Origin: Rhodospirillaceae bacterium TMED23
Lineage (GTDB): Bacteria > Pseudomonadota > Alphaproteobacteria > Rhodospirillales > UBA2165
NCBI GenBank assembly: GCA_002168115.1
Contig: NHCC01000014.1
Span: 164,525 to 198,254 of the forward strand
Direction of reading: 5' to 3'
DNA length: 33,730 nt
Shown: positions 20,988 through 33,730 of the stretch, piece by piece
Layout of the letters: the number at the start of each line of letters is the position of its first letter
Position numbering within the stretch: the stretch's first letter is position 1
Program-made: the position numbers and the translations under genes
Notes under the pieces: model-generated
Told to the model about the DNA's origin: nothing
Database searches by the model: none
The model's input: only the letters and a program-made list of their open reading frames with translations

Positions 20988-22271
20988 ATGATACAGTGGA
21001 CTAAAAATAGAAAGCATGCAGGTTTAGCAGTTCTAATTTGTATTATAGGCATTATAGTTGTTGTTTTTTTAAAAATTAGCGCTCCCATATCTGTTGCAAA
21101 GCCAGAGGTTGAAAAACGTTGGGCGGTAGCGACAAAGCAATTATATATGGAAGATGTTCAGCCAACTATCCAAGAGTTCGGGACCATTGTCGCTGGAAGT
21201 CAGGCTGAAATTAAACCATTGGTTTCAGGTCGAATTATAGAGCTTGGGGAGAATTATTACGAAGGTGCGATAGTTAAAAAAGGTAACCTTTTGGCTAAAA
21301 TTGACCCTTTTATTTATCAAATCAAAGTTGAAGACAGTGAAGCTGCTCTTCAAGAAGTCCTAAATAAAATATTGGAAACTGAGGGAGAAATAAAGTTTGA
21401 GTCTAAACTTCTCAAAATAGTGGGTTTTCAGTTAGCTCTTCGAAAAAAAGATTTAGACCGCAGAAAAAAATTATTTCGACAAGGATCTTCATCACGAAAG
21501 TCTCTGGATGATGCGGAGCTTGCATTTAACGAGATGAATCAAAATTTTACTGTTCGAGAGCAAATAATTTTACGGCTAAAGAACCGATTAGCTCAACTTA
21601 GAGCCACTGCTAAGCGGTCAGAGTTGAGGCTTAAATTGGCAAGGCGTGATTTGAAAGAGACTTCAATTTTTGCCCCCTTTGGAGGGTTTCTTGCGAATGC
21701 GAGTTTTTCTAGGGGCCAAAAAGTTGGAATAAATGAGCGAATAGTAAGGTTAATAGAGGCGAAGCGTTTAGAAGTTAAGTTTCGCATTAGTGAACGAAAT
21801 TTTTCGGATTTGTTGACACCAAAGATAGAAATATTTTCCAATAATTTTAAGGTTACAGAGTTAATGGAAAAAAAAATTCAAGTAAAATGGAAGATTGGCA
21901 AAAGAACCTTTATTTATGACGCGATAATAAACCGACTAGGGGCGGAAATTGATGCCTCTGGCGGTGGCATTGATGTATTTGCAGAATTAATAGGTATCGA
22001 TCTGGTTACACCACTAAGACCGGGAGCTTTTGTTGAAGTTAACATTCCATCTCGGTTATATAAGGATGTTGTAATGGTGCCAGATTCGGCTTTAGTTAGA
22101 GATAAAATTATCTATCTAGTAATTAATGGACGCGTGAAAGAAAAGATTGTTAACCCACTGAGGCGTGGAGCGAAAGATATATTATTGGGCGATAAAGATT
22201 TAGATGGTTCTGTTGTTATTACGCGTCCGTTTCCAAAAATTGCGGATGGTCTTATGGTAAGGGCTCGATGA
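20988..22271 (+). CDS. RND efflux periplasmic adaptor subunit (HlyD/AcrA family)
   Basis: Membrane-fusion protein linking an RND pump to an outer-membrane channel. The 427-residue protein has one N-terminal membrane anchor (about 11-30) and no lipobox cysteine, so it is probably membrane-anchored rather than a lipoprotein. The biotinyl-lipoyl half-motif region follows (IKPLVSGRIIELGENYYEGAIVKKG split over about 75-99), then a long coiled-coil hairpin (about 115-215, rich in Lys, Arg, Leu, Glu), the second lipoyl half (ETSIFAPFGGFLANASFSRGQ split near 225-245), and a beta-barrel/MP domain. Its stop overlaps the pump start as ATGA (22268-22271). The Shine-Dalgarno before ATG 20988 is weak. Confidence 0.9.
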   Translation: MIQWTKNRKHAGLAVLICIIGIIVVVFLKISAPISVAKPEVEKRWAVATKQLYMEDVQPTIQEFGTIVAGSQAEIKPLVSGRIIELGENYYEGAIVKKGNLLAKIDPFIYQIKVEDSEAALQEVLNKILETEGEIKFESKLLKIVGFQLALRKKDLDRRKKLFRQGSSSRKSLDDAELAFNEMNQNFTVREQIILRLKNRLAQLRATAKRSELRLKLARRDLKETSIFAPFGGFLANASFSRGQKVGINERIVRLIEAKRLEVKFRISERNFSDLLTPKIEIFSNNFKVTELMEKKIQVKWKIGKRTFIYDAIINRLGAEIDASGGGIDVFAELIGIDLVTPLRPGAFVEVNIPSRLYKDVVMVPDSALVRDKIIYLVINGRVKEKIVNPLRRGAKDILLGDKDLDGSVVITRPFPKIADGLMVRAR

Positions 22272-25200
22272 GTATAAAAAATAACTCTGAAACAAAAAGT
22301 GCGGCGTTAACCGGTCCAATAGCTCTATTTGCCCGACATCCCACTGCAGCAAATTTGATTATGATTCTAATGATCATAGCTGGTATCTGGGGAGTTATAA
22401 AAATGAATTCTCAGTTTTTACCTAGTTTCGGAATTGATATCGTTACAGTCTCGATTGAATGGCCCGGAGCAAATTCTGAGGACATTGATACGAATATTGT
22501 ACAGATTGTAGAGCCTGAGGTAAGGTTTTTGGACGGTGTAAAAAAAGTGCGCTCCACCTCTTCTGAGGGTCGGGCATCGTTCGTTATCGAGTTTAAGGCT
22601 GGATCAGATATGCAATCAGCATTGTCTGATATTGAGGCGGCTGTCTCTCGTATAACAACGTTACCCGTTGGTACTCTCAAACCAAATGTAAAAAGAATTA
22701 TTCGTTATGAAACTATTACAAAGTTAGTGGTTTCTGGTAAAATGCCAGAAGAGGCCCTAAAAGCATATGCAAAAACCTTTCGCGATGATTTGCTTGCCCG
22801 TGGTATCGATCGGGTTGAACTGTTTGGCAGCCGTGATCAAGAAATTTGGATTGAAACCCCGCAGAAAGCTCTTCGTAGGGTTGATTTAACTATTGAGGAT
22901 ATTTCGAAAAAGATAAGTGATACATCTATTGATTTACCCTCTGGTAATCTTGGGCGGGGTCTGAGACAAGTTAGAAGTCTGGGTTTGCTTACCACAGCCG
23001 ATAGCTTGCGGAAAATGGAGGTAAAGTCATTAGATGACGGACGTAAAATTTATCTTAATGACGTTGCTACTGTTGGGGAAAAGTTTAAAGACTCGGATCC
23101 TATTGGATTGCGCAGAGGCTTGCAGGCAATAGAATTGCATTTGATGAGAGCGTTAAATTCCGATGCTCTTCTTTTGGCATCAAAAGTTGATGATTTTCTC
23201 TCCGAAACTAAGGATTATCTTCCCTCAAATTTATTTATAGAGAGATATGACACGGCCACGGACCTGCTTGATGAGCGGATAGGACTACTTTTAAGTAATG
23301 CTATTAGCGGGCTCTTCGTAGTAGCATTGATTTTATTTATTTTTTTACGGGCTTCTATTGCAATCTGGGTTTTATTAGGAATTCCAATTTGTTTTATGGC
23401 AACGCTCGGAGTTATGGAAGCTACTGGACAATCGATAAACATGATTAGTCTTTTTGGACTTATTATGGCACTGGGTATTGTTGTAGATGATGCAATTGTA
23501 GTCGGTGAACACTCGGAATCGCAGAGCAGGCTTGGATTAGATCCACTTTCAGCCTCAGTTTTAGGTGCCCGTCGAATGGCTGCGCCGGTTGTAAGTGCCT
23601 CTCTGACCACAATATGTGCATTTCTTCCTTTAATTTTAATTACTGGTATTATTGGACAGGTAATCTCTGCCATTCCGATGGTAATTGTAGCTGTTTTGTT
23701 GGCTAGTCTCTTAGAGTGTTTTTATGTACTTCCGGGTCACTTAAATCATGGAATGAGTTCAAAATATCCAGTCTTTAAGTTGTATGATACTGCCCGCACC
23801 CATTTTGATGACTGGTTTGCTGATTTTAGAGATAATAAGTTTAAGCAATTAGTGAAATTAAGTATTGAATGGAGATATGTTACGTTATCAATTGTCATTG
23901 CTCTGTGTCTTATTGCCGTTGGTCTTGTCATTGGTGGTCGCGTTGGCTTTACATTTTTTCCTACTCCTGAATCGGATAAAATAGTGGCTAATATAGAAAT
24001 GGTTGCTGGGACCTCTAGGGGCAACACAACAATTATGATTAAAGAGGTAGAGCGAGCAGCTAATGTCGCAGCAAAAAAAATCGGTAATGGTGATAATAAT
24101 TTAATTAAAATGAATTTTTTGAAGGTTGGTGTTCGTGTTTCTGGCAGTGCAAACGCTGCGTCAGCAAATGATGTTGATGACACAACTGCTGGACTTATAG
24201 TTGAATTACTTACTGCGGATAAAAGATCTGTTCGAACGTCTCAGTTTATTGAAGCATGGGCAGCAGAGGTAAACGATATGGCAGGGCTTAAAAACCTAAC
24301 TATCCAAGAAGTCAGAGGCGGGCCACCTGGACGAGATATTGATATTAGACTAAAAGGATCGAATATTACGAGCCTAAAAAATGTGGCTAATAAAGTTATG
24401 CAAATGTTAGAGATGTACCCGGGAGTTAGTAACGTTGAGGATAATATTCCCTACGGCAAAAGGGAAACAATCTTGAAAGTTAATGAGCGTGGAAAGTCTC
24501 TTGGTTTTTCAACGCAAGATATTGGGAGACAAATTAAAAATGCGATTGATGGTAAAATTGCAAAACGATTTGCGAGAGATGAAGAAGAAGTAACAGTGCG
24601 TGTTATGTACCCGCGCAGCAATAATAAGCCTGAGATGCTTAATGATATTTATTTGCGAGGTCCCTCTGGGCAAGAAATACCATTATCACAAATTGTTTCT
24701 TCCAGCGAGACTGTTGGGTTTTCTAAAATTAGGAGAGAGGGTGGAAGTCGTGAAATAGCAATTACTGCGGAAATTGATTCTTCGGTTACAACCGTGGGTA
24801 AAGTACTGTCAGCAATTGAACGTGATGGTATTAATAAAATTGCGAATGATGCTGGGCTGAATGTGGGATTCTCGGGTAAAGCAGAAGAGCAAAAAGAAAC
24901 GTTTGCGGATATGAAGTTAGGTTTATTAATAGGTCTAGCAGGTATTTACGTTGTGTTAGCATGGGCATTTGCTAGTTATACGCGACCAATAGCAGTAATG
25001 ATTGTCATTCCTATGGGATTTATAGGAACCGCGTTTGGCCATTTTCTTTTAGGCTACAATCTAACGATTTTGAGCATGGTAGGTTTAATTGGTTTATCCG
25101 GGATCATAATTAATGGATCTATCATACTTGTTACTACTATTGATGCGAAAGTGAGAGATTCTAAAATTATAGACGCAATTGTGAATGCGTCGTGTGATCG

Positions 25201-25423
25201 TCTGAGACCCATAATGTTAACTTCAGCAACGACAATTGGTGGATTAATGCCGCTATTGTTCGAGCGAAGTATACAAGCACAATTTCTCATACCGATGGCT
25301 ATTACGATCGTATTTGGTTTAGGGGTTGCTACTCTTCTGATATTATTTGTGGTTCCTTCATTTATCGCTGTGTTAGATGATATGAAGAAGTTTTGGATCG
25401 ATCGTTCACGATTAAAAATTTAA
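22268..25423 (+). CDS. RND family efflux transporter permease (AcrB/MexF-like)
   Basis: Proton-driven trimeric inner-membrane pump of 1051 residues with the family layout: one N-terminal helix, a large periplasmic loop, six helices around 340-540, a second periplasmic loop, and five C-terminal helices. Helix 4 carries the paired aspartates Asp407-Asp408 (ALGIVVDDAIVVGEH), the proton-relay pair. In helix 10 the lysine of AcrB (K940) is missing: the stretch reads GLIGLSGIIINGSIILV. That pattern occurs in a side group of HAE-type RND pumps. The substrate is unknown. Adaptor and pump share an ATGA overlap; no TolC-like channel gene or TetR/AcrR-type repressor is present in the window. Confidence 0.92.
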   Translation: MSIKNNSETKSAALTGPIALFARHPTAANLIMILMIIAGIWGVIKMNSQFLPSFGIDIVTVSIEWPGANSEDIDTNIVQIVEPEVRFLDGVKKVRSTSSEGRASFVIEFKAGSDMQSALSDIEAAVSRITTLPVGTLKPNVKRIIRYETITKLVVSGKMPEEALKAYAKTFRDDLLARGIDRVELFGSRDQEIWIETPQKALRRVDLTIEDISKKISDTSIDLPSGNLGRGLRQVRSLGLLTTADSLRKMEVKSLDDGRKIYLNDVATVGEKFKDSDPIGLRRGLQAIELHLMRALNSDALLLASKVDDFLSETKDYLPSNLFIERYDTATDLLDERIGLLLSNAISGLFVVALILFIFLRASIAIWVLLGIPICFMATLGVMEATGQSINMISLFGLIMALGIVVDDAIVVGEHSESQSRLGLDPLSASVLGARRMAAPVVSASLTTICAFLPLILITGIIGQVISAIPMVIVAVLLASLLECFYVLPGHLNHGMSSKYPVFKLYDTARTHFDDWFADFRDNKFKQLVKLSIEWRYVTLSIVIALCLIAVGLVIGGRVGFTFFPTPESDKIVANIEMVAGTSRGNTTIMIKEVERAANVAAKKIGNGDNNLIKMNFLKVGVRVSGSANAASANDVDDTTAGLIVELLTADKRSVRTSQFIEAWAAEVNDMAGLKNLTIQEVRGGPPGRDIDIRLKGSNITSLKNVANKVMQMLEMYPGVSNVEDNIPYGKRETILKVNERGKSLGFSTQDIGRQIKNAIDGKIAKRFARDEEEVTVRVMYPRSNNKPEMLNDIYLRGPSGQEIPLSQIVSSSETVGFSKIRREGGSREIAITAEIDSSVTTVGKVLSAIERDGINKIANDAGLNVGFSGKAEEQKETFADMKLGLLIGLAGIYVVLAWAFASYTRPIAVMIVIPMGFIGTAFGHFLLGYNLTILSMVGLIGLSGIIINGSIILVTTIDAKVRDSKIIDAIVNASCDRLRPIMLTSATTIGGLMPLLFERSIQAQFLIPMAITIVFGLGVATLLILFVVPSFIAVLDDMKKFWIDRSRLKI

Positions 25424-25456: not shown

Positions 25457-27091
25457 TCATTCATCGTCTTTAAGGGTACGTACCTCCGTATTCATATCAA
25501 CATCGCTACGACGGCGTTGCGCATTGTTTTTTCCAGTTTGCCAGTAATCGCTCTTCGCAGCGAGTTTTGCCATATATTCAAATTCCTCAGTCCACTCTCC
25601 TAAATCATACCCGTGCCAAGGAGATTCTCTTTTTAGTTTCGGTAATCCCAATTCATCCCATATTTCTGCTGCGTTCTCCATAAATTCTTTTTTTGGTAGA
25701 GAAACTGGCGGAAATGTTCCCTTTAAAGTGGCATCAATTAAAACCGAAGCATCCTCTGGATCCAATAAATTTCGTGGGCCATGTCCAGCATCCTGATGTT
25801 TAATAACCTCTAAATCATGTTGAGGCTTGCAACGATAAGCCATTGCCCAAAAAAGTGCGTCAGCATTCTCACCATCAATATCTTCATTAACTGCAATAAT
25901 CCATTTACCTTCAGACTGTCTAAAAGATGCTAAACCATACATCGCCCGCCAAATTTCAGTCCTTGGAGTATCTCTCTTAAAAATAATAGCATGAACCCGA
26001 TGTAATGATGTCAGTGGCTCATGGGCCTTAACACTGATAACAGTTTTAATACCTAGAGTATCTCTTAGATACGATGTATTTCTGGACTCATAAGAAAATC
26101 GACGGATAACACTAGACTCGCTCGGGGCAACTTGACTAACCCAAGAAGTAATAACAGCAGCTTTTTTTCGAGTAATAGCCGTTATATCCATAAAACCATT
26201 ATATTCCTGCAGATTTACGTATCCATGTGACTCTCCGAAAGGTGCTTCAGGTTCTAAATATTCCGTATCAATAAAACCCTCTATAACTACTTCAGCATCC
26301 GCTGGCACTAAGATGTCAACAGTATGGGCTTTTACGAGTTCAAGAGGTTTTCCCACTAAAGCACCAGCGACTTCTAATTCATCTAAACCTTCAGGTACTT
26401 TTTGGACCGATGCATATGATATTACGGGCGCGCATCCTATTACCACTGCACAAGGCATTTTCTTTCCAAGCGCTTTCCATGAGAGCCAGTTTATATAACC
26501 ACCAGTCCTAAGTTCTGTTGAAGTGTTTATACCTAATCGGTCAGGAGCTTTTATTTGACCCCGATAGTTTCCCATATTTTGGATGCCTGTATTGGGATCC
26601 TTTGTAATATAATGAGAAGATGATGTATAAGGGGCATTGTCCCAACCTGGTGTTGAGATAGGGATCGGAAGATCGTCAAGACCCTTCCCATTATTTAGAT
26701 CTGCGCCCTGGTAGATAAGTTCATGGCATGCAGCATATTTGCTATTTATTATTTTCGGCGGAAGAGGTTTGTCTATTGCAGCCGACCATTTCGCATTTGT
26801 TTCGTCTAGTTTGCAACCAATTCCGATTTCATAGATAGCAGGGCTACCCGCAAGGCCGCATACTAAGACTGGGATATCATACTTGCGACCTTTACTGTCT
26901 ATTACATTAGAAAATAACCATGCTTTTCGCTCATTCTCGGCAATTCCTCCTCTGTATTGCCACCGAACCAGCGGATGCATCTCAGTATCTTTATTGATTT
27001 GACGATCGACTTCAATTAGCAGTCCGGCTTTTTTTAAAGCCTTAATATGTTCACGTATGTTATTATATGTATTTCCATTTTTCTTTGTCAT
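25457..27091 (-). CDS. UbiD-family prenylated-FMN-dependent decarboxylase
   Basis: Reversible (de)carboxylase acting on aromatic, heteroaromatic or alpha,beta-unsaturated acids with prenylated FMN made by a UbiX protein (not in this window). In the 544-residue protein the cofactor and metal segment QNMGNYRGQ (171-179) supplies Asn172 and Arg177; the E-R-E triad is completed by Glu282 and Glu287 in PEAPFGES. The C-terminal part has DPEDASVLIDATLKG and the DLGEWTEEFE tail. It differs from housekeeping UbiD in its partner: its ATG overlaps the stop of the ThDP-enzyme gene as TAATG, with no visible ribosome-binding site, so it is probably translated by reinitiation and works in the same pathway. 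A ubiquinone role is possible but less likely given the neighbours. Confidence 0.9.
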   Translation of the reverse strand: MTKKNGNTYNNIREHIKALKKAGLLIEVDRQINKDTEMHPLVRWQYRGGIAENERKAWLFSNVIDSKGRKYDIPVLVCGLAGSPAIYEIGIGCKLDETNAKWSAAIDKPLPPKIINSKYAACHELIYQGADLNNGKGLDDLPIPISTPGWDNAPYTSSSHYITKDPNTGIQNMGNYRGQIKAPDRLGINTSTELRTGGYINWLSWKALGKKMPCAVVIGCAPVISYASVQKVPEGLDELEVAGALVGKPLELVKAHTVDILVPADAEVVIEGFIDTEYLEPEAPFGESHGYVNLQEYNGFMDITAITRKKAAVITSWVSQVAPSESSVIRRFSYESRNTSYLRDTLGIKTVISVKAHEPLTSLHRVHAIIFKRDTPRTEIWRAMYGLASFRQSEGKWIIAVNEDIDGENADALFWAMAYRCKPQHDLEVIKHQDAGHGPRNLLDPEDASVLIDATLKGTFPPVSLPKKEFMENAAEIWDELGLPKLKRESPWHGYDLGEWTEEFEYMAKLAAKSDYWQTGKNNAQRRRSDVDMNTEVRTLKDDE

Positions 27092-28890
27092 TAAAGCATC
27101 GTTCTAACATCGACAACAGCAACGTTACCCATCTCTAATTGTTCTACCGCTTCTTTAAATACTTTTGAAAGATCTCTAGGATTGCTTATTGGGCCTTCTG
27201 ACCACCCCCCATAACTTCTAACCATTGTTGCGTAATCTGTTGCTGGTTCTGCCATACGTTGTCCAATCCATGCGTTTTCAACAGGTCTATTTCTTTTTTT
27301 TGCTATATTCCTTTGATGAAATTCATCATTTCCCCAACTATTATTATTATTAATAGCAATAAGAACGGGTATTTTGTAATGAACCGCCGTCCAGATCGCT
27401 CCAGACCCCATTTGAAAGTCACCATCTCCCATTATAGCTATTGGAAGTTTCCCTTGTTCTCGATAGGCAAGAGCTGCTCCAACGGCCGCTGCCGGACCAT
27501 AACCGACACCCCCACCACCATCAGCTCCTAGGTATTGACCTGATTTTGAAAAATTCCATAAACCTTCTGGAAAGCTCCTATGATTACGAACCGGTAAAAC
27601 CCAGTCCTTATTCTTAACGGCCTCATATAGCTCAAAGGTAAGACGACCTGTACTTATCGGTTCGGAGTCCCAGGTATCATTCCATTTTTCTTTTTGCTCT
27701 TGCCTTAGTATCTTATGTCTTTTGCTAATCGAAACTTTCCTATCTTCAATAACTTTAATAGTGGCTGGATTATTAGATAGTTGATTTTTAATAGCAGAAA
27801 TTAATTGTTTTATCCCATAAGTTGGATCACAATCAATTTGCAAGTCCACTGCCGCCTGAGGCCCACCGGCATTCGACCATGAGCTGGTAATTAAATTTTC
27901 AAGTGTCATTTCAATTATTTTTTGTCCGGGTCTACCTCTTAAGTCTTTGTTATGCGCCCCCGCAGCTGTTGTTGTATCCACACAATCGATCGCTAGAATA
28001 AGATCTGCTGTTTCTCTTATCTTAGGATCACCATTTAAATTCTGAGGGTGAAAAGTTGGCATGCACACAACGGCTCTATCCTCAACATAATTTGATCCCG
28101 AAATTTCAACGAGTTCAATGAGTATCTCACTTGTTTGGGTCTCACGTCCAAATCGTCCACCTACAATTAATGGATTTTCAGCAGCTATTAGCATTCTTGC
28201 TGCCTCTTCGATAGCTTCAATATTGGCTGAAATTGGTCCAGGTGCTTGATAACAATTGAACGATGCATCGGGTATTATTAAATTTTCTGGCAAAGGGTCC
28301 TCTTGTAAACCAAGGTCTAGAGAAACATAAGTCGGGGCTTGAGGTTTTGATTTTGCTATTTTATTTGCCTTCAACATTGTATCGATTGCTGATTGCAGTG
28401 TAACTGGATCCATCGACCATTTCGTAAATGGTTTTACTAAATCACATTGCATACTCGCAGTATGTGTCCAATCAATGGGGCGACGCCGAGAAGGGTCTTG
28501 TGGCCCGCTACCGCCAAATATAACAACTGGTACGCGATCTACCCAAGCATCAAATACACTAACGGATGCGCACATTAGACCTACTAGGTCGTGTATCACA
28601 CATGCAGCTGCGCTCTCTGACGCCTTAGCATACCCATGAGCCATGGCAACCACGATTGATTCGTGATCGCACATGATCATTTCGGGGTTTTGATTGCGGC
28701 GGTGATTTATCAGTGAGTCATGAAGCCCTCGGTAGCTAGAACCGGGCAAAACAAAAATATGTTTAAAACCCATATCTGATATCACATCTGCCATGACATC
28801 AGAACCATATTCTGGTTTTAATTCATTATCAGGTAAATTAATCGGTGTCTCTGGATACTTCATTGATCCGTAGTCAGAACTTTTATCCAT
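27091..28890 (-). CDS. ThDP-dependent enzyme, 2-oxoacid decarboxylase / acetolactate synthase-like
   Basis: Thiamine-diphosphate enzyme of 599 residues. The N-terminal Pyr domain holds the activating Glu77 in CDHESIVVAMAHGYA; a central Rossmann-like domain follows; the C-terminal PP domain has the cofactor motif GDGDFQMGSG (488-497) to NNNNSWGNDE (514-523). The family includes acetolactate synthase, benzoylformate decarboxylase, sulfopyruvate decarboxylase and oxalyl-CoA decarboxylase, and I cannot place it in any one of these. No FAD-site-specific signature of AHAS and no regulatory subunit gene are evident, so a decarboxylase or carboligase in catabolism is likelier than branched-chain biosynthesis. 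ATG 28890 has GGGGGAT about 8 bases upstream. It is coupled to the UbiD gene and divergent from the hydroxyacid oxidase, whose 2-oxoacid product could be its substrate. Confidence 0.87.
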   Translation of the reverse strand: MDKSSDYGSMKYPETPINLPDNELKPEYGSDVMADVISDMGFKHIFVLPGSSYRGLHDSLINHRRNQNPEMIMCDHESIVVAMAHGYAKASESAAACVIHDLVGLMCASVSVFDAWVDRVPVVIFGGSGPQDPSRRRPIDWTHTASMQCDLVKPFTKWSMDPVTLQSAIDTMLKANKIAKSKPQAPTYVSLDLGLQEDPLPENLIIPDASFNCYQAPGPISANIEAIEEAARMLIAAENPLIVGGRFGRETQTSEILIELVEISGSNYVEDRAVVCMPTFHPQNLNGDPKIRETADLILAIDCVDTTTAAGAHNKDLRGRPGQKIIEMTLENLITSSWSNAGGPQAAVDLQIDCDPTYGIKQLISAIKNQLSNNPATIKVIEDRKVSISKRHKILRQEQKEKWNDTWDSEPISTGRLTFELYEAVKNKDWVLPVRNHRSFPEGLWNFSKSGQYLGADGGGGVGYGPAAAVGAALAYREQGKLPIAIMGDGDFQMGSGAIWTAVHYKIPVLIAINNNNSWGNDEFHQRNIAKKRNRPVENAWIGQRMAEPATDYATMVRSYGGWSEGPISNPRDLSKVFKEAVEQLEMGNVAVVDVRTML

Positions 28891-28988
28891 TTTTGTGATC
28901 CCCCAATTTAGAATTTAACTATTCATAAATAATATCTATTAAAGCCCATTAATTTTTCTAATCGTGGTATAAAATATTATTTTATTTT

Positions 28989-29005
28989 AATAGTATCAAA
29001 CTATT
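28989..29005. promoter_or_regulatory. Palindromic candidate operator in a divergent promoter region
   Basis: AATAGT and ACTATT are exact reverse complements around ATCAA; the inner part has the T-N11-A form often seen in LysR-type regulator sites. It lies in the 217-base gap between the ThDP-enzyme gene and the hydroxyacid oxidase gene, about 80-90 bases upstream of a possible start for the latter. No regulator gene is present nearby, so this is suggestive only. Confidence 0.3.
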
Positions 29006-29045
29006 TTAGATTCAAAATATTACAAGGTTACATCTAATTTTTGAC

Positions 29046-29074
29046 TTTTAAGCTTTGTAAGTAGCGGATATAAA
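29046..29074 (+). promoter_or_regulatory. Candidate promoter of the hydroxyacid oxidase gene
   Basis: A good -10, TATAAA (29069-29074), with a poor -35, TTTTAA, at 17 bases; TTGACT at 29041 is closer to consensus but 22 bases away. The weak -35 fits a promoter that needs an activator. The leader would be about 27 bases and carries AGGAGGG (29094-29100). Confidence 0.3.
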
Positions 29075-29107
29075 TTAGAAATAGACTTTGATTAGGAGGG
29101 TGTTCAA

Positions 29108-30205
29108 GTGCAAAAGAAAGTTAGTGATATACAAACTAATGGTGAATTCATAAAAATAGCTCGCACGAACCTAGATCAAGAAAATTGGGATTATTTAATA
29201 GGTGGTGGCGAATCTGAGACAACTTTATTACGTAATCGGCAATCAATTGACTCGCTAGCATTCAGGCCACGTGTCATGCGAAACGTTGTTAATATTGATA
29301 CTTCGACGGATTTTTTGGGCTCAAAACTAAGAATACCCGTATTTCTTGCGCCGATTGGGTCTTTGCAAAGATTTACCGAAAGGGGAGGAATAACTACTAG
29401 CTCTGCAGCACATGAATTTGGTATCCCAGCTTTTATTAGTTCGGTAACCAAACCAGATGTGCGAGAAATTCGGGAAACTACGAATGGTGATTTATTCTTT
29501 CAGCTTTATGTCCGCGATGATATGGATTGGATTCTAAGTTTTGTTGATCTAGCTTTGGAACTCGGTTGCAAGGGTTTTTGTTTAACTGCTGATACTGCAA
29601 ATTATGGGCGCCGAGAACGAGATAAAATTAAAGGCTTTGAGCCACGGCGAGCTCGAACCAATACAAAATCAGACGGTTTTGTTTACCAAGCAGCACTAGA
29701 TTGGGACGTCGTTGATATAATTAGGAAACATTCATCGATACCGCTTTTAGTCAAAGGTATTGTTACCGCAGAGGATGCTATTCTAGCGGTCGAGCATAGT
29801 GTCGAAGTTATTTATATTTCAAATCATGGTGGTAGACAGCTTGATCACGGAAGAGGTTCGATCGATATAATAACAGAAGTTGTTAATGCTGTTAATGGAA
29901 AAGCCAAAGTAATTGTTGATGGAGGTTTCTGCAGGGGCACTGATATTGCAAAAGCTATGGCACTAGGAGCCGACGCCGTTGGTATTGGTAAAATGTATGG
30001 TTTAGCTGCTTCAGCTGGAGATGGGGAGGCGGTGATTCGAATGCTAGAAATTCTTGAGGAAGAATTCAGGCTAGCACTGGCTTTACTGGGCGTGACTTCT
30101 CCTAAAGAACTTTGCCCAGAACATCTTCAGGCTGTTCAGCCTGTTCGATCACCTAGCTTTAGCAGCGCCTTTCCGCATTTTGACATTGAAAAATATGAGT
30201 ACTAA
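29108..30205 (+). CDS. FMN-dependent alpha-hydroxyacid oxidase/dehydrogenase (L-lactate / glycolate / mandelate family)
   Basis: TIM-barrel flavoenzyme of 365 residues that oxidises L-2-hydroxyacids to 2-oxoacids. By alignment to spinach glycolate oxidase all catalytic positions are present: Tyr29, Tyr134 (FQLYV), Asp162 (TADT), Lys216 (LLVKG), His240 and Arg243 (SNHGGRQLD). The FMN-phosphate site is altered: the DGGxR motif reads DGGFC (271-275) and the later IGR reads IGK (293-295). GTG 29108 has a strong AGGAGGG seven bases upstream. The gene stands alone on the plus strand, divergent from the ThDP-enzyme/UbiD pair and ending 7 bases from the convergent permease gene. Whether it reduces oxygen or a quinone/cytochrome cannot be told. 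Confidence 0.92.
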   Translation: MQKKVSDIQTNGEFIKIARTNLDQENWDYLIGGGESETTLLRNRQSIDSLAFRPRVMRNVVNIDTSTDFLGSKLRIPVFLAPIGSLQRFTERGGITTSSAAHEFGIPAFISSVTKPDVREIRETTNGDLFFQLYVRDDMDWILSFVDLALELGCKGFCLTADTANYGRRERDKIKGFEPRRARTNTKSDGFVYQAALDWDVVDIIRKHSSIPLLVKGIVTAEDAILAVEHSVEVIYISNHGGRQLDHGRGSIDIITEVVNAVNGKAKVIVDGGFCRGTDIAKAMALGADAVGIGKMYGLAASAGDGEAVIRMLEILEEEFRLALALLGVTSPKELCPEHLQAVQPVRSPSFSSAFPHFDIEKYEY

Positions 30206-30212
30206 TATTTTT

Positions 30213-32309
30213 TTAGAATAAGTTAAACTCTCTAATACTTCGTAATACTGGGAACCATGATCCAATTGTTGCAAGTGGCCAAAGTACTTTAAGAACCGAA
30301 TGAAATAAAAGATAACATAATCCCCACATAATAGAGCTTATTGTTAATGTAACTCTCCAACTTTCTTTCGCTTCTAATCTCATATAAGAAATTACAAAGA
30401 CTAATATAGCGGGTAATAGGCCTATAAGTTGAGCAATAACTACATAGCTTATACACCATAGTAAGTATCGCCCTGCCCGGCTATATATTACCTTCGAGGT
30501 AAGATTTCCGTAATCTGCCTGAATATCAAAATGCGTTGTTTCTTCTCCAGTTTGTTGGCCAGGAACGCTTGCGATGTTATCTGTATTTTTAAGAGGAGAT
30601 TTAAAAAGGCATGAACTAATATGAGAGAAGCTTATTATTATTCCAAATATACCAAGCAGCATTGGAATTAATTTGGCATCCATTTCCCATTCTTCGGAAG
30701 TAATTAACGCAAAAGTAAAAACAAGTCCAAATACCAGTGTAAATAAAAAATCCGGATTTGATAAGTAATCTTTTTGAAAACTAATTTTGATTTGTTTATT
30801 CTGCGATTTTCTTCGTTTTCGAAATTTTTGAATTACAGGCGATATTACTGAAATAAAGGTAATTATTAGTATTATAATAACAACGGGGCGACTTAGCCAC
30901 TCAAATTCCCATCGGCTGTATGAAATGTATAAATATCTCTCGATCAAAGCGCCCAGAACAAATCCAAGAACGAGCGGGGGTCTGGGCCATCTCAAACGTT
31001 TCATCAACCAACCGAGCATGCCGAAACCGATTAATACATATAGGTCTGCCCAATCTTTGTGCCCTTGGAAGGCACCCAAAAATACAATGGCGAGAACAAC
31101 TGGGACCAAAATACCAGGTCTTATAATAGCTATCTTCGCAAGTCGATTTGCAAAAATAAAACATAACCCGGCTCCAAAAATATTAGCAAATGCCACAGAC
31201 CAGACCATGGTATATGTAAGATCTAAGTTTTCTGATAACATTTTGGGACCAGGAACTATTCCATGGATTAAAAAGGCGCCAAGCAATAAGGCCATTGAGG
31301 CAGATCCCGGAACACCAAATGCTATAGTCGGAACTAGAGCTCCTCCTTCTTTAGCATTATTAGAGCTTTCTGATGCTATAACACCTCTAATATCTCCTTT
31401 GCCGAATGTTTTCTGTGCATCTTTCTCGGTCCTCGCTGCATGTCCATAGGCTACCCAATCTACGACTGACGCTCCTATGCCAGGAATAGACCCTAGAACT
31501 GATCCAATAACACCACATCTTAGTACCAAGAACCAGTTTTTGAAAACGTCTTTTACACCCTCAATTTGACCTTTTTTACCAAAATTTTTTGTATCTCCCG
31601 AGACTGTTTTTCTAGTAATCATTAAATCAGCTAATTCAGGAATAGCAAAAATACCCAGCGCAAAAGGAACTAAGGGGAGACCATCCCATAGATATTGAGT
31701 ATCAAAAGCCCATCTAATTGTTCCAGTTTGTTGGTCATCGCCTATGGTTGAAATTAGAATTCCCAGCGCTGCTGCTAAAAGACCTTTTGCTACTGAAGAA
31801 CCAGACAAAACCGCTACTAATGAAAGCCCAAATATACAAATTGCAAACATTTCAGGCTGAGAAAACGATAACATGAAAGGTCGCAAAACAGGGACACTGA
31901 CGGCCAATAAAAGCGCTCCAAATAAACCACCTAAAACAGATGCTGTGAAGGCAGCGCCAAATGCTCTACTAGCTTCGCCTTTTCGGGCTAATGGGTATCC
32001 GTCTAATATTGTTGCCGCTGATCCTGATGTGCCCGGAACACCGAACAAAACTGCCGGTATCGTATCAGAAGTGACAGTAACTGATCCTAAACCTAGCATC
32101 ATTGCAATGGCCGCGTATGGATCCATTGCATATGTGAATGGTAAAAGCAATGAAAGACCAACCAGTCCACCCAAACCAGGAATTACGCCTATCACTAGGC
32201 CCATTAGTACGCCAGATATTAAAAAAATAATTCTTGATGGATCAGAAATAATATCTAAGGCCTGTAAAGCCATAGTGAGCATTGAATCAATACCTACACC
32301 CGATTCCAT
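30213..32309 (-). CDS. Tripartite tricarboxylate transporter permease, TctA-TctB fusion
   Basis: Membrane permease of the TTT family, which imports citrate, other carboxylates or aromatic acids using a periplasmic binding protein (TctC). The protein has about 698 residues. The first 500 are TctA with its internal repeat: VIPGLGGLVGLSLLLP and FGVPGTSGSAATILDGYPLA in the first half, SIPGIGASVVDWVAYGHA and FGVPGSASMALLLGAFLI in the second. After a Lys/Arg-rich linker (about 490-510) comes a TctB-like domain of four hydrophobic segments. TctA and TctB are usually separate genes, so this is a fusion. Two tandem ATGs (32312, 32309) follow GGAG; the second has the better spacing. No tctC gene is in the window. 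Confidence 0.9.
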   Translation of the reverse strand: MESGVGIDSMLTMALQALDIISDPSRIIFLISGVLMGLVIGVIPGLGGLVGLSLLLPFTYAMDPYAAIAMMLGLGSVTVTSDTIPAVLFGVPGTSGSAATILDGYPLARKGEASRAFGAAFTASVLGGLFGALLLAVSVPVLRPFMLSFSQPEMFAICIFGLSLVAVLSGSSVAKGLLAAALGILISTIGDDQQTGTIRWAFDTQYLWDGLPLVPFALGIFAIPELADLMITRKTVSGDTKNFGKKGQIEGVKDVFKNWFLVLRCGVIGSVLGSIPGIGASVVDWVAYGHAARTEKDAQKTFGKGDIRGVIASESSNNAKEGGALVPTIAFGVPGSASMALLLGAFLIHGIVPGPKMLSENLDLTYTMVWSVAFANIFGAGLCFIFANRLAKIAIIRPGILVPVVLAIVFLGAFQGHKDWADLYVLIGFGMLGWLMKRLRWPRPPLVLGFVLGALIERYLYISYSRWEFEWLSRPVVIIILIITFISVISPVIQKFRKRRKSQNKQIKISFQKDYLSNPDFLFTLVFGLVFTFALITSEEWEMDAKLIPMLLGIFGIIISFSHISSCLFKSPLKNTDNIASVPGQQTGEETTHFDIQADYGNLTSKVIYSRAGRYLLWCISYVVIAQLIGLLPAILVFVISYMRLEAKESWRVTLTISSIMWGLCYLLFHSVLKVLWPLATIGSWFPVLRSIREFNLF

Positions 32310-32364
32310 CATAATTCTCCATTATCAAAGTTTTTTTTATAATTTTTATTTTTTAGATGTTTTC

Positions 32365-32395
32365 AATATAAAGTTTTTAATCAGTCTCTTGTCAA
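32365..32395 (-). promoter_or_regulatory. Candidate promoter of the TctA-TctB gene
   Basis: A perfect TTGACA on the minus strand (32395-32390) and, 18-19 bases on, TTATAT/TATATT (32371-32365), in the 100-base gap before the permease gene. The spacing is slightly long. It suggests that the permease can be transcribed separately from the crotonase gene upstream. Confidence 0.4.
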
Positions 32396-32412
32396 TCATT
32401 CTGTGTTTGCGT

Positions 32413-33144
32413 TTAGTTCCCCATCATGCCTTTAGATGTATTTATCGTAGCGTGCATATTCTGTGCAAATTGAGTAGCTTGTTCTATTGTCATCGACATA
32501 GCATTTGCAGTGTACTCTTTCACGCCAAGTATTGCAGGCATTGGTGTTTTATCTAGCGCTTTGCATAGAAGATTTAGGTGGTGGTCAAGTTTTCCATCGG
32601 GTACTACCTTGCTTACTAGGCCAAAAGCTAATGCAGTTGTGGCATCTATTTCCTCATTCGAATAAGTTAAATATAATATGCCTTTCCTTCCAACCCGGTC
32701 TATTAACGAGGACATGGCCATGGTTGGCATGATGTTGTGTCCCGTCTCAGGAAGTGCAAAAGAGGCGCTTTCTTCAGAAATAGTAATATCGCAAACTGAT
32801 GCCATCGCACAACCAAAGCCAAGTGCTCTACCTTGAGTTAGACTAATTATGGGAATTTTAGAGTGCCTTAAAGCACCATAAAAATTAAATATTACTTCAC
32901 TCCGGCGTTTTGCATCAAGGGCATCACTTGGTCTGCCAGATTCTCTGCCTGCTGAATCACGTCCAAGGCAGAAATCACTACCGCTACTTCGAACTACAAT
33001 ATATTTAGAGTTCATACTCGCTCCCTGAATTAATTTTGTAAATTCAATAGCCATTGTATCACTCATCAGGCCCCCGCAGTCGGCGCGGTCTATTGTAATA
33101 TAAGTACCATTACCGATTAACTCTGTGACTAAGTAGTTTGACAT
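32413..33144 (-). CDS. Enoyl-CoA hydratase/isomerase (crotonase) family protein
   Basis: Crotonase-fold protein of 243 residues from ATG 33144. The oxyanion-hole segments are DFCLGRD (57-63) and GRALGFGCAMA (105-115); the loop SFALPETGHNIMP has Glu133 at the place of rat crotonase Glu164. The second hydratase glutamate (Glu144) is Ala113 here (GCAMA for GCELA), so a classical hydratase mechanism is unlikely and an isomerase, lyase or other crotonase reaction is possible. The start is supported by AGAGAGG five bases upstream; the longer ORF to 33255 runs into the preceding gene and lacks family residues. It follows the molybdenum-hydroxylase gene by 16 bases, so the two form an operon. Confidence 0.87.
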   Translation of the reverse strand: MSNYLVTELIGNGTYITIDRADCGGLMSDTMAIEFTKLIQGASMNSKYIVVRSSGSDFCLGRDSAGRESGRPSDALDAKRRSEVIFNFYGALRHSKIPIISLTQGRALGFGCAMASVCDITISEESASFALPETGHNIMPTMAMSSLIDRVGRKGILYLTYSNEEIDATTALAFGLVSKVVPDGKLDHHLNLLCKALDKTPMPAILGVKEYTANAMSMTIEQATQFAQNMHATINTSKGMMGN

Positions 33145-33160
33145 TATGGCCTCTCTTCTA

Positions 33161-33730
33161 TTATTGATCGTGGATAATACGCCAAATTTTTTCTGGTGTT
33201 GCTGGCATATCAATATGATCGATTTGAAATTCATCAAGTGCATCAACAATAGCATTTACAATAGCAGCTGGCGCTGCTGTTGTTCCTCCTTCCCCCCCAC
33301 CTTTTACACCTAGATAATTATTTGGCGCGGGAACTTCATTAAATGCTAACTCAAACGATGGAGCATCATTTGCTCTTGGCATAGCGTAGTCCATAAATGA
33401 ACCAGAAAGAAGCTGTGAATTATTTTTATCATAGAGACATTCCTCCATAAGTGCTTGTCCTAGTCCTTGCACTATTCCTCCATGTGTCTGACCATCGACA
33501 ACCATAGGGTTCACAACAGTTCCTACATCATCAACACCAATATATTTGGAAACTTTTACTACGCCAGTCTCTTTATCAATTATAATTTCACAAGCATGGC
33601 AACCATTTGGATAGGTAGGTAGAAAAGTTGAAATTTCTGCTGTGGCTATTAGAGGGCTTACAAATTCTTTTTCTGCGAATTCGGTCTCTGCTAGTTTTGC
33701 GACCTCAAATAAATGGAGTTTTTTGTTTGT
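33161..33730 (-). CDS. Xanthine dehydrogenase/CO dehydrogenase-family molybdopterin subunit, C-terminal part (cut by window edge)
   Basis: Only the last 189 residues lie in the window; the frame is open to base 33730. The stretch KYIGVDDVGTVVNPMVVDGQ is the conserved part of the large molybdopterin-binding subunit, followed by HGGIVQGLGQALMEE and, near the C-terminus, GVKGGGEGGTTAAPAAIVN, a sequence typical of CoxL-like and related hydroxylases. In known members the catalytic Glu is the one in this GxGE-type motif. Such enzymes hydroxylate heteroaromatic rings, aldehydes or acyl-CoAs using Mo, FeS and FAD subunits; the small and medium subunit genes should lie beyond the window. The GTG at 33514 is internal, not a start. 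The substrate-determining active-site loop is not visible. Confidence 0.9.
   Translation of the reverse strand, partial: TNKKLHLFEVAKLAETEFAEKEFVSPLIATAEISTFLPTYPNGCHACEIIIDKETGVVKVSKYIGVDDVGTVVNPMVVDGQTHGGIVQGLGQALMEECLYDKNNSQLLSGSFMDYAMPRANDAPSFELAFNEVPAPNNYLGVKGGGEGGTTAAPAAIVNAIVDALDEFQIDHIDMPATPEKIWRIIHDQ

Follow-up and report, generated by a model that had tools for sequence, protein, structure and literature searches.

A conserved marine gene cluster joining UbiD decarboxylases, Mo-hydroxylases and a benzoylformate-decarboxylase-like enzyme: a candidate upper pathway for aromatic acids

The mandelate pathway consists of an FMN mandelate dehydrogenase, benzoylformate decarboxylase and benzaldehyde dehydrogenase. 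The locus described here resembles it in that an FMN 2-hydroxyacid oxidase adjoins a benzoylformate-decarboxylase-like ThDP enzyme with the catalytic Glu and His, but it has no aldehyde dehydrogenase (ALDH), it adds three UbiD proteins, two Mo-hydroxylases and a tripartite tricarboxylate transporter (TTT), and its ThDP enzyme scores far under the NCBIfam cut-off. With the hmf (5-hydroxymethylfurfural/furoate) pathway the shared elements are a Mo-hydroxylase, a UbiD and a UbiX, whereas the locus lacks a CoA synthetase, its UbiD belongs to a distant subfamily, and the hmf gene table holds neither a ThDP enzyme nor an FMN oxidase. As for phthalate-type catabolism, Rieske systems and 4,5-dihydroxyphthalate-decarboxylase-like proteins stand beside relatives of our ThDP enzyme, but the locus itself contains neither a Rieske dioxygenase nor such a decarboxylase, and has UbiD instead. 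The nearest published example that we found of a ThDP decarboxylase and a xanthine-oxidase-type enzyme on a heterocycle is the lum operon for lumichrome/riboflavin, where the ThDP decarboxylase acts first and the Mo enzyme of the xanthine oxidase family follows (PMC12746152). There, LumK/LumL form a two-subunit ThDP enzyme, and the published reaction sequence, as we read it, includes no UbiD (PMC12746152). In the open-licence literature we found no matching pathway for the gene combination, for UbiD and Mo-hydroxylase with pyridine acids, for isatinate/IAA catabolism, or for marine UbiD with TTT, in agreement with an earlier sequence-only reading of this DNA, which knew of no described pathway with the exact set. 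The enzyme families are all known; the combination is new, and it is not a new kind of system.

The window, that is, the whole stretch of 33,730 nucleotides analysed, comes from a contig (C22) of a marine MAG of 2.57 Mb. According to the ORF list and the Pfam search, the six catabolic genes assigned by the sequence-only reading are all open, in place and clearly matched (Table 1). It had also held that the cluster passes the window edge, and in fact the cluster extends ~7.8 kb further, with the rest of Mo1 and five more genes. The six-gene list was right as far as it went, and the window edge hid from it that there are three UbiD genes with specific partners, as well as Mo2, TctC and the aldolase. 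As listed, the crotonase ORF has 280 aa and begins within Mo1; from its likely start at 33144 it has 243 aa, which is the length of the orthologue in a sister genome. The ThDP and UbiD1 genes overlap by 1 base and UbiD3 and Mo2 by 8 bases, while the gaps are 11 bases between UbiD2 and Mo1 and 16 bases between Mo1 and the crotonase gene. This spacing suggests coupled gene units.

Table 1. Positions of the genes of the cluster and of related genes. Plain numbers are window positions; for the sequence past the edge, window position = L002 + 21475.
Feature	Position	Strand	Remark
UbiD1, prFMN-type decarboxylase, 544 aa	25457..27091	-	Pfam UbiD 1e-48
ThDP-dependent benzoylformate-decarboxylase-like enzyme, 599 aa	27091..28890	-	Pfam ThDP N 4e-22, C 3e-23
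FMN-dependent alpha-hydroxyacid oxidase, 365 aa	29108..30205	+	Pfam FMN_dh 7e-94
Fused TctA-TctB membrane subunits of TTT	30213..32312	-	Pfam TctA 8e-131, TctB 7e-9
Crotonase-family protein, 243 aa	32413..33144	-	Pfam ECH_1 2e-27; revised start 33144
Mo1 C-terminal part, xanthine-dehydrogenase-family molybdopterin subunit	33161..33730	-	MoCoBD_2 5e-35; motifs SYRGAGR, GGEGG
Mo1 whole gene, 781 aa	L002:11686-14031	-	
UbiD2	L002:14043-15683	-	beyond window
TctC binding protein	L002:15802-16893	-	beyond window; start revised; completes transporter
UbiD3	L002:17173-18825	+	beyond window
Mo2, second Mo-hydroxylase large subunit	L002:18818 to L003:1175	+	beyond window
Class II aldolase	L003:1165-1929	-	beyond window; unrelated genes after it
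Putative membrane-fusion protein and RND-type efflux pump	20988-25423	+	assigned by eye
Mo-crotonase pairs in other genomes	L163:10938-14017; L164:12561-17234; L165; L166		
S. fredii NGR234 pNGR234b, UbiD	198271-199869		
S. fredii NGR234 pNGR234b, ThDP enzyme	190824-192551		
Salipiger abyssi pPABY1 cluster	L022:11098-22458		
Thioclava nitratireducens pLX02 cluster	L169:2496-20758		

Several functions are absent from the locus. It contains no ring-cleavage gene, and Mo1 and Mo2 have neither an Fe2S nor a FAD subunit encoded in it; the genome encodes elsewhere a 33% relative of an extradiol-type protein found in two other genomes (G434 and G357, see below) and ten Fer2_2 proteins. Within the cluster no regulator was seen, and no ORF for a furoyl-CoA synthetase lies between window position 25457 and the aldolase.

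The locus is real and conserved as a set, also in other orders of bacteria. A sister genome, which matches the separately published Rhodospirillales MAG BS30m-G14, has the same gene order at 87–96% identity, so the cluster is not an assembly accident; among named relatives, BS30m-G14 also has the most similar ThDP protein (93%). In Neorhizobium, S. meliloti and S. fredii NGR234 the order is TTT-ThDP-TctC-UbiX-MoL-UbiD-MoL-CoxG-Fe2S-CoxM. Rhizobial plasmids (pNGR234b in S. fredii) carry the TTT permease, ThDP enzyme, TctC, UbiX, a GntR gene, a UbiD between two Mo large subunits, CoxG, and Fe2S and FAD subunits. Genome G066 has UbiX-aldolase-Mo2-UbiD3-TctAB-TctC-ThDP within 12.5 kb, and genome G363 has MoL-UbiD-UbiD-UbiD-TctC-ThDP-aldolase. 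A scattering of the homologues in related genomes, which would have spoken against the cluster, is not what we see: a UbiD gene lies within about 10 kb of the ThDP gene in 16 of 27 alphaproteobacterial loci, against 0.9–4.2 expected from UbiD densities of 2–10 per Mb, for loci that were found via the ThDP enzyme and are mutually related.

Three of the five UbiD proteins of the genome fall in the cluster. Their Pfam scores are 165, 167 and 173 bits (cut-off 23.3). Arg177, Glu282 and Glu287 of UbiD1 are invariant across 21 homologues, and the same Glu-Arg-Glu residues, which we take to be the catalytic triad of the family, are kept in UbiD2 and UbiD3. The predicted model of UbiD1 (pLDDT 77) has the UbiD fold, with Z 37 versus 10.7 for the first unrelated structure. 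A UbiX-like protein of 192 aa, assigned by homology (46% to the rhizobial UbiX), is encoded on another contig (C20). In a maximum-likelihood tree the three UbiDs fall into three separate supported clades. All members of the UbiD3 clade adjoin a Mo2-type subunit, and in a second family Mo1-type subunits, together with a crotonase, are the neighbours of close UbiD2 relatives. The tree of the Mo subunits mirrors that of the UbiDs, with a Mo1 clade beside UbiD2 and crotonase and a Mo2 clade beside UbiD, rhizobia included. Both Mo-binding domains are present in the large subunit, along with the conserved Glu motif, as expected in the xanthine dehydrogenase family. The two Mo-hydroxylases each keep a UbiD partner of their own, in the groups UbiD2-Mo1-crotonase and UbiD3-Mo2, and these matching clades of partners are in our view the strongest evidence that a Mo-hydroxylase and a UbiD form a recurring working unit.

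The crotonase is tied to Mo1 and UbiD2 and not to an evident CoA pathway. In an alignment of five proteins, the first of the two Glu positions that we take to be catalytic in enoyl-CoA hydratases is Ala in the window protein and its four relatives. Since this residue is missing, 'enoyl-CoA hydratase' is probably a misnomer for it. Neorhizobium, Paraburkholderia and Sagittula share a conserved pair, in which a crotonase that has the motif DFCxGR but not the first catalytic Glu comes directly after a Mo large subunit.

The ThDP enzyme resembles benzoylformate decarboxylase in its predicted fold and in its catalytic Glu and His. Glu77 and His100 are kept in all 67 ThDP homologues and correspond, with the numbering shifted by 30 throughout the first part of the HMMER match, to Glu47 and His70 of P. 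putida benzoylformate decarboxylase, presumably the ThDP-activating Glu and the active-site His. The predicted model (pLDDT 88) is closest in structure to benzoylformate decarboxylases (Z 35.8), and other ThDP enzymes such as acetolactate synthases come just 1–2 Z units below. The protein reaches 125 bits with the NCBIfam equivalog for benzoylformate decarboxylase, against a cut-off of 493. With a score so far under the cut-off and with the fold and these two catalytic residues kept, we call it benzoylformate-decarboxylase-like and place it outside the curated family. Searched against PDB sequences, the ThDP profile hits 2-hydroxyacyl-CoA lyases best (3e-32) and benzoylformate decarboxylase second (4e-30). 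We rejected the lyase identity, because the position of the active-site His is not occupied by His in such lyases, and because by structure benzoylformate decarboxylases rank ahead, though by only 1–2 Z units; an acetolactate synthase was set aside on the structural ranking, by the same small difference.

The genes of the cluster do not themselves give the class of substrate; for that we rely on what stands beside their relatives in other genomes. In G434 and G357, an operon of UbiD2, Mo1, an extradiol-type dioxygenase and crotonase lies near genes for a CoA transferase, an aconitase-like protein and an aldolase. In Paraburkholderia, a Mo-hydroxylase, a crotonase, a UbiD (of another subfamily, 27–35%), UbiX, a VOC protein, fumarylacetoacetase and aromatic-acid symporters occur together, and in Neorhizobium the Mo-crotonase pair lies near a gentisate dioxygenase. 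Relatives of 4,5-dihydroxyphthalate decarboxylase stand beside the ThDP gene in 14 loci (37% to a protein annotated as such), and the two that were checked have no obvious signal peptide. The bicupin and ALDH beside actinobacterial ThDP relatives and the Rieske-dioxygenase cluster of Thioclava, both described below, point the same way. As relatives of the cluster stand beside ring-cleavage or aromatic-decarboxylase genes, an aromatic acid is favoured as the substrate; the neighbours point to such acids as a class and do not name the compound. This fits the earlier suggestion of a pathway for an imported, possibly aromatic carboxylate.

On balance we lean towards an upper pathway for aromatic or heteroaromatic (poly)carboxylates, made of two Mo-hydroxylase/UbiD units and one ThDP/UbiD1 unit, and consider it somewhat better than an even guess. 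The TTT system (TctC, TctA-B) would import the substrate, an aromatic or heteroaromatic acid that probably bears at least two acid groups. Mo1 with UbiD2 (and the crotonase) and Mo2 with UbiD3 would each oxidise a ring or an aldehyde and then release a carboxyl group as CO2. In the third unit, with its overlapping ThDP and UbiD1 genes, the ThDP enzyme may take CO2 off a 2-oxo (or 2-imino) acid; in this genus the FMN hydroxyacid oxidase could supply the 2-oxo acid. Ring cleavage and an aldolase would then process the products. The reading builds on the gene content, the conservation as a set, the partner pairing, the fold and the intact catalytic residues, and from these we infer in which order the steps run, that the substrate is aromatic and that all units belong to one pathway; with several transcription directions in the cluster, one shared pathway is not proven. 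A bolder version appears rather doubtful: an undescribed route for an abundant marine (hetero)aromatic polycarboxylate, where repeated Mo-hydroxylase/UbiD pairs would strip the carboxyls successively and the ThDP enzyme would act directly on a heteroaromatic 2-imino acid.

Among the alternatives, a single mandelate-like chain is unlikely but survives best. The FMN oxidase would convert ArCH(OH)COOH to ArCOCOOH, the ThDP enzyme would give ArCHO, the Mo enzyme ArCOOH and UbiD ArH and CO2, so that the product of each enzyme type is the substrate of the next. The oxidase seems fit for such a role: in an alignment of its 94% identical orthologue to glycolate oxidase 1gox, the equivalents of Tyr24, Tyr129, Arg164, Lys230, His254 and Arg257, which we take to be catalytic, are all kept, and Val replaces Trp108, which may give a roomier pocket. 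The grouping of oxidase, ThDP enzyme and ALDH recurs in Salipiger abyssi (with a ThDP enzyme of 44%, two ALDHs and TTT) and, inside a Rieske-dioxygenase cluster, in Thioclava, and an ALDH lies near the ThDP gene in 26 of 58 loci. On the other hand, our locus has no ALDH, the Mo subunits pair with UbiDs even where no ThDP enzyme or oxidase is nearby, and most loci lack the oxidase. This is the least conserved gene of the set, near the ThDP gene in 2 of the 58 loci and absent from the rhizobial, G066 and G363 versions of the cluster; the best rhizobial relative has neither ThDP nor UbiD nearby. The sequence-only reading had made the FMN oxidase a fixed partner, which our counts do not support; it lies outside the core of the set.

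The clusters with the oxidase have some further features. On pPABY1 of S. abyssi, the ThDP gene stands between the two ALDH genes, with a 4,5-dihydroxyphthalate-decarboxylase-like protein encoded in the same cluster, and Pelagibacterium lacus (L069) has a similar set. On pLX02 of Thioclava nitratireducens, a Rieske dioxygenase, a reductase, a Gfo/Idh/MocA oxidoreductase, the FMN oxidase, the ThDP enzyme, an ALDH and nadC (quinolinate phosphoribosyltransferase) occur together.

It is less likely still that the ThDP enzyme works after ring cleavage, on a 2-oxo acid fission product, with the UbiD and Mo units upstream. Relatives in several families of Actinobacteria (L071-L100) accompany a 360-aa gentisate-dioxygenase-like bicupin, a CoxD-like AAA protein and an ALDH, mostly without UbiD, and several of these loci have a second ThDP enzyme in tandem. 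The similarity of the bicupin to gentisate dioxygenase is limited, however (36% over 98 aa), and here the ThDP gene is coupled to UbiD1 in a locus without a ring-cleavage gene. We give a similarly low weight to a catabolic patchwork, in which adjacent genes serve two or more separate pathways. The several strand changes, the restriction of the FMN oxidase to this genus among close loci, and the separate occurrence of UbiD2-Mo1-crotonase and ThDP-UbiD1 in other genomes would agree with it, but TTT, ThDP, UbiD, MoL and aldolase stay together in distant families. A furan-acid pathway like hmf, with UbiD as HmfF, the Mo enzyme as HmfA and the crotonase as HmfE, is very improbable: HmfF (6h6x) is the best PDB sequence match of UbiD1, Mo enzyme, UbiD and UbiX are common to both, and a CoA transferase lies in the G434 operon region, but UbiD1 is 26–28% identical to HmfF by structural alignment and about 100 aa longer, and these values, with the missing CoA synthetase, rule it out as an HmfF member, and neither a ThDP enzyme nor an FMN oxidase figures in the hmf gene table.

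The upper pathway that we favour offers a recurrent, testable gene set, which a rhizobium kept in laboratories, S. fredii NGR234, also carries. Relatives of the same class hold 28–37 UbiD genes per genome, so the function of one such unit could shed light on the use of oxidised aromatic carbon by marine bacteria. By genome, we counted 37 UbiD-domain proteins in G357 (complete, 4.15 Mb, alphaproteobacterial), 37 in G434, 28 in G162 (2.5 Mb) and 25 in G010, versus 5 in the window genome. On its UbiD1 side the cluster directly adjoins two genes that stand tail to tail with UbiD1 and whose products are a putative membrane-fusion protein of 427 aa and a putative efflux pump of the RND type with 1051 aa; ORFs of equal lengths hold their place in the sister genome (L024).
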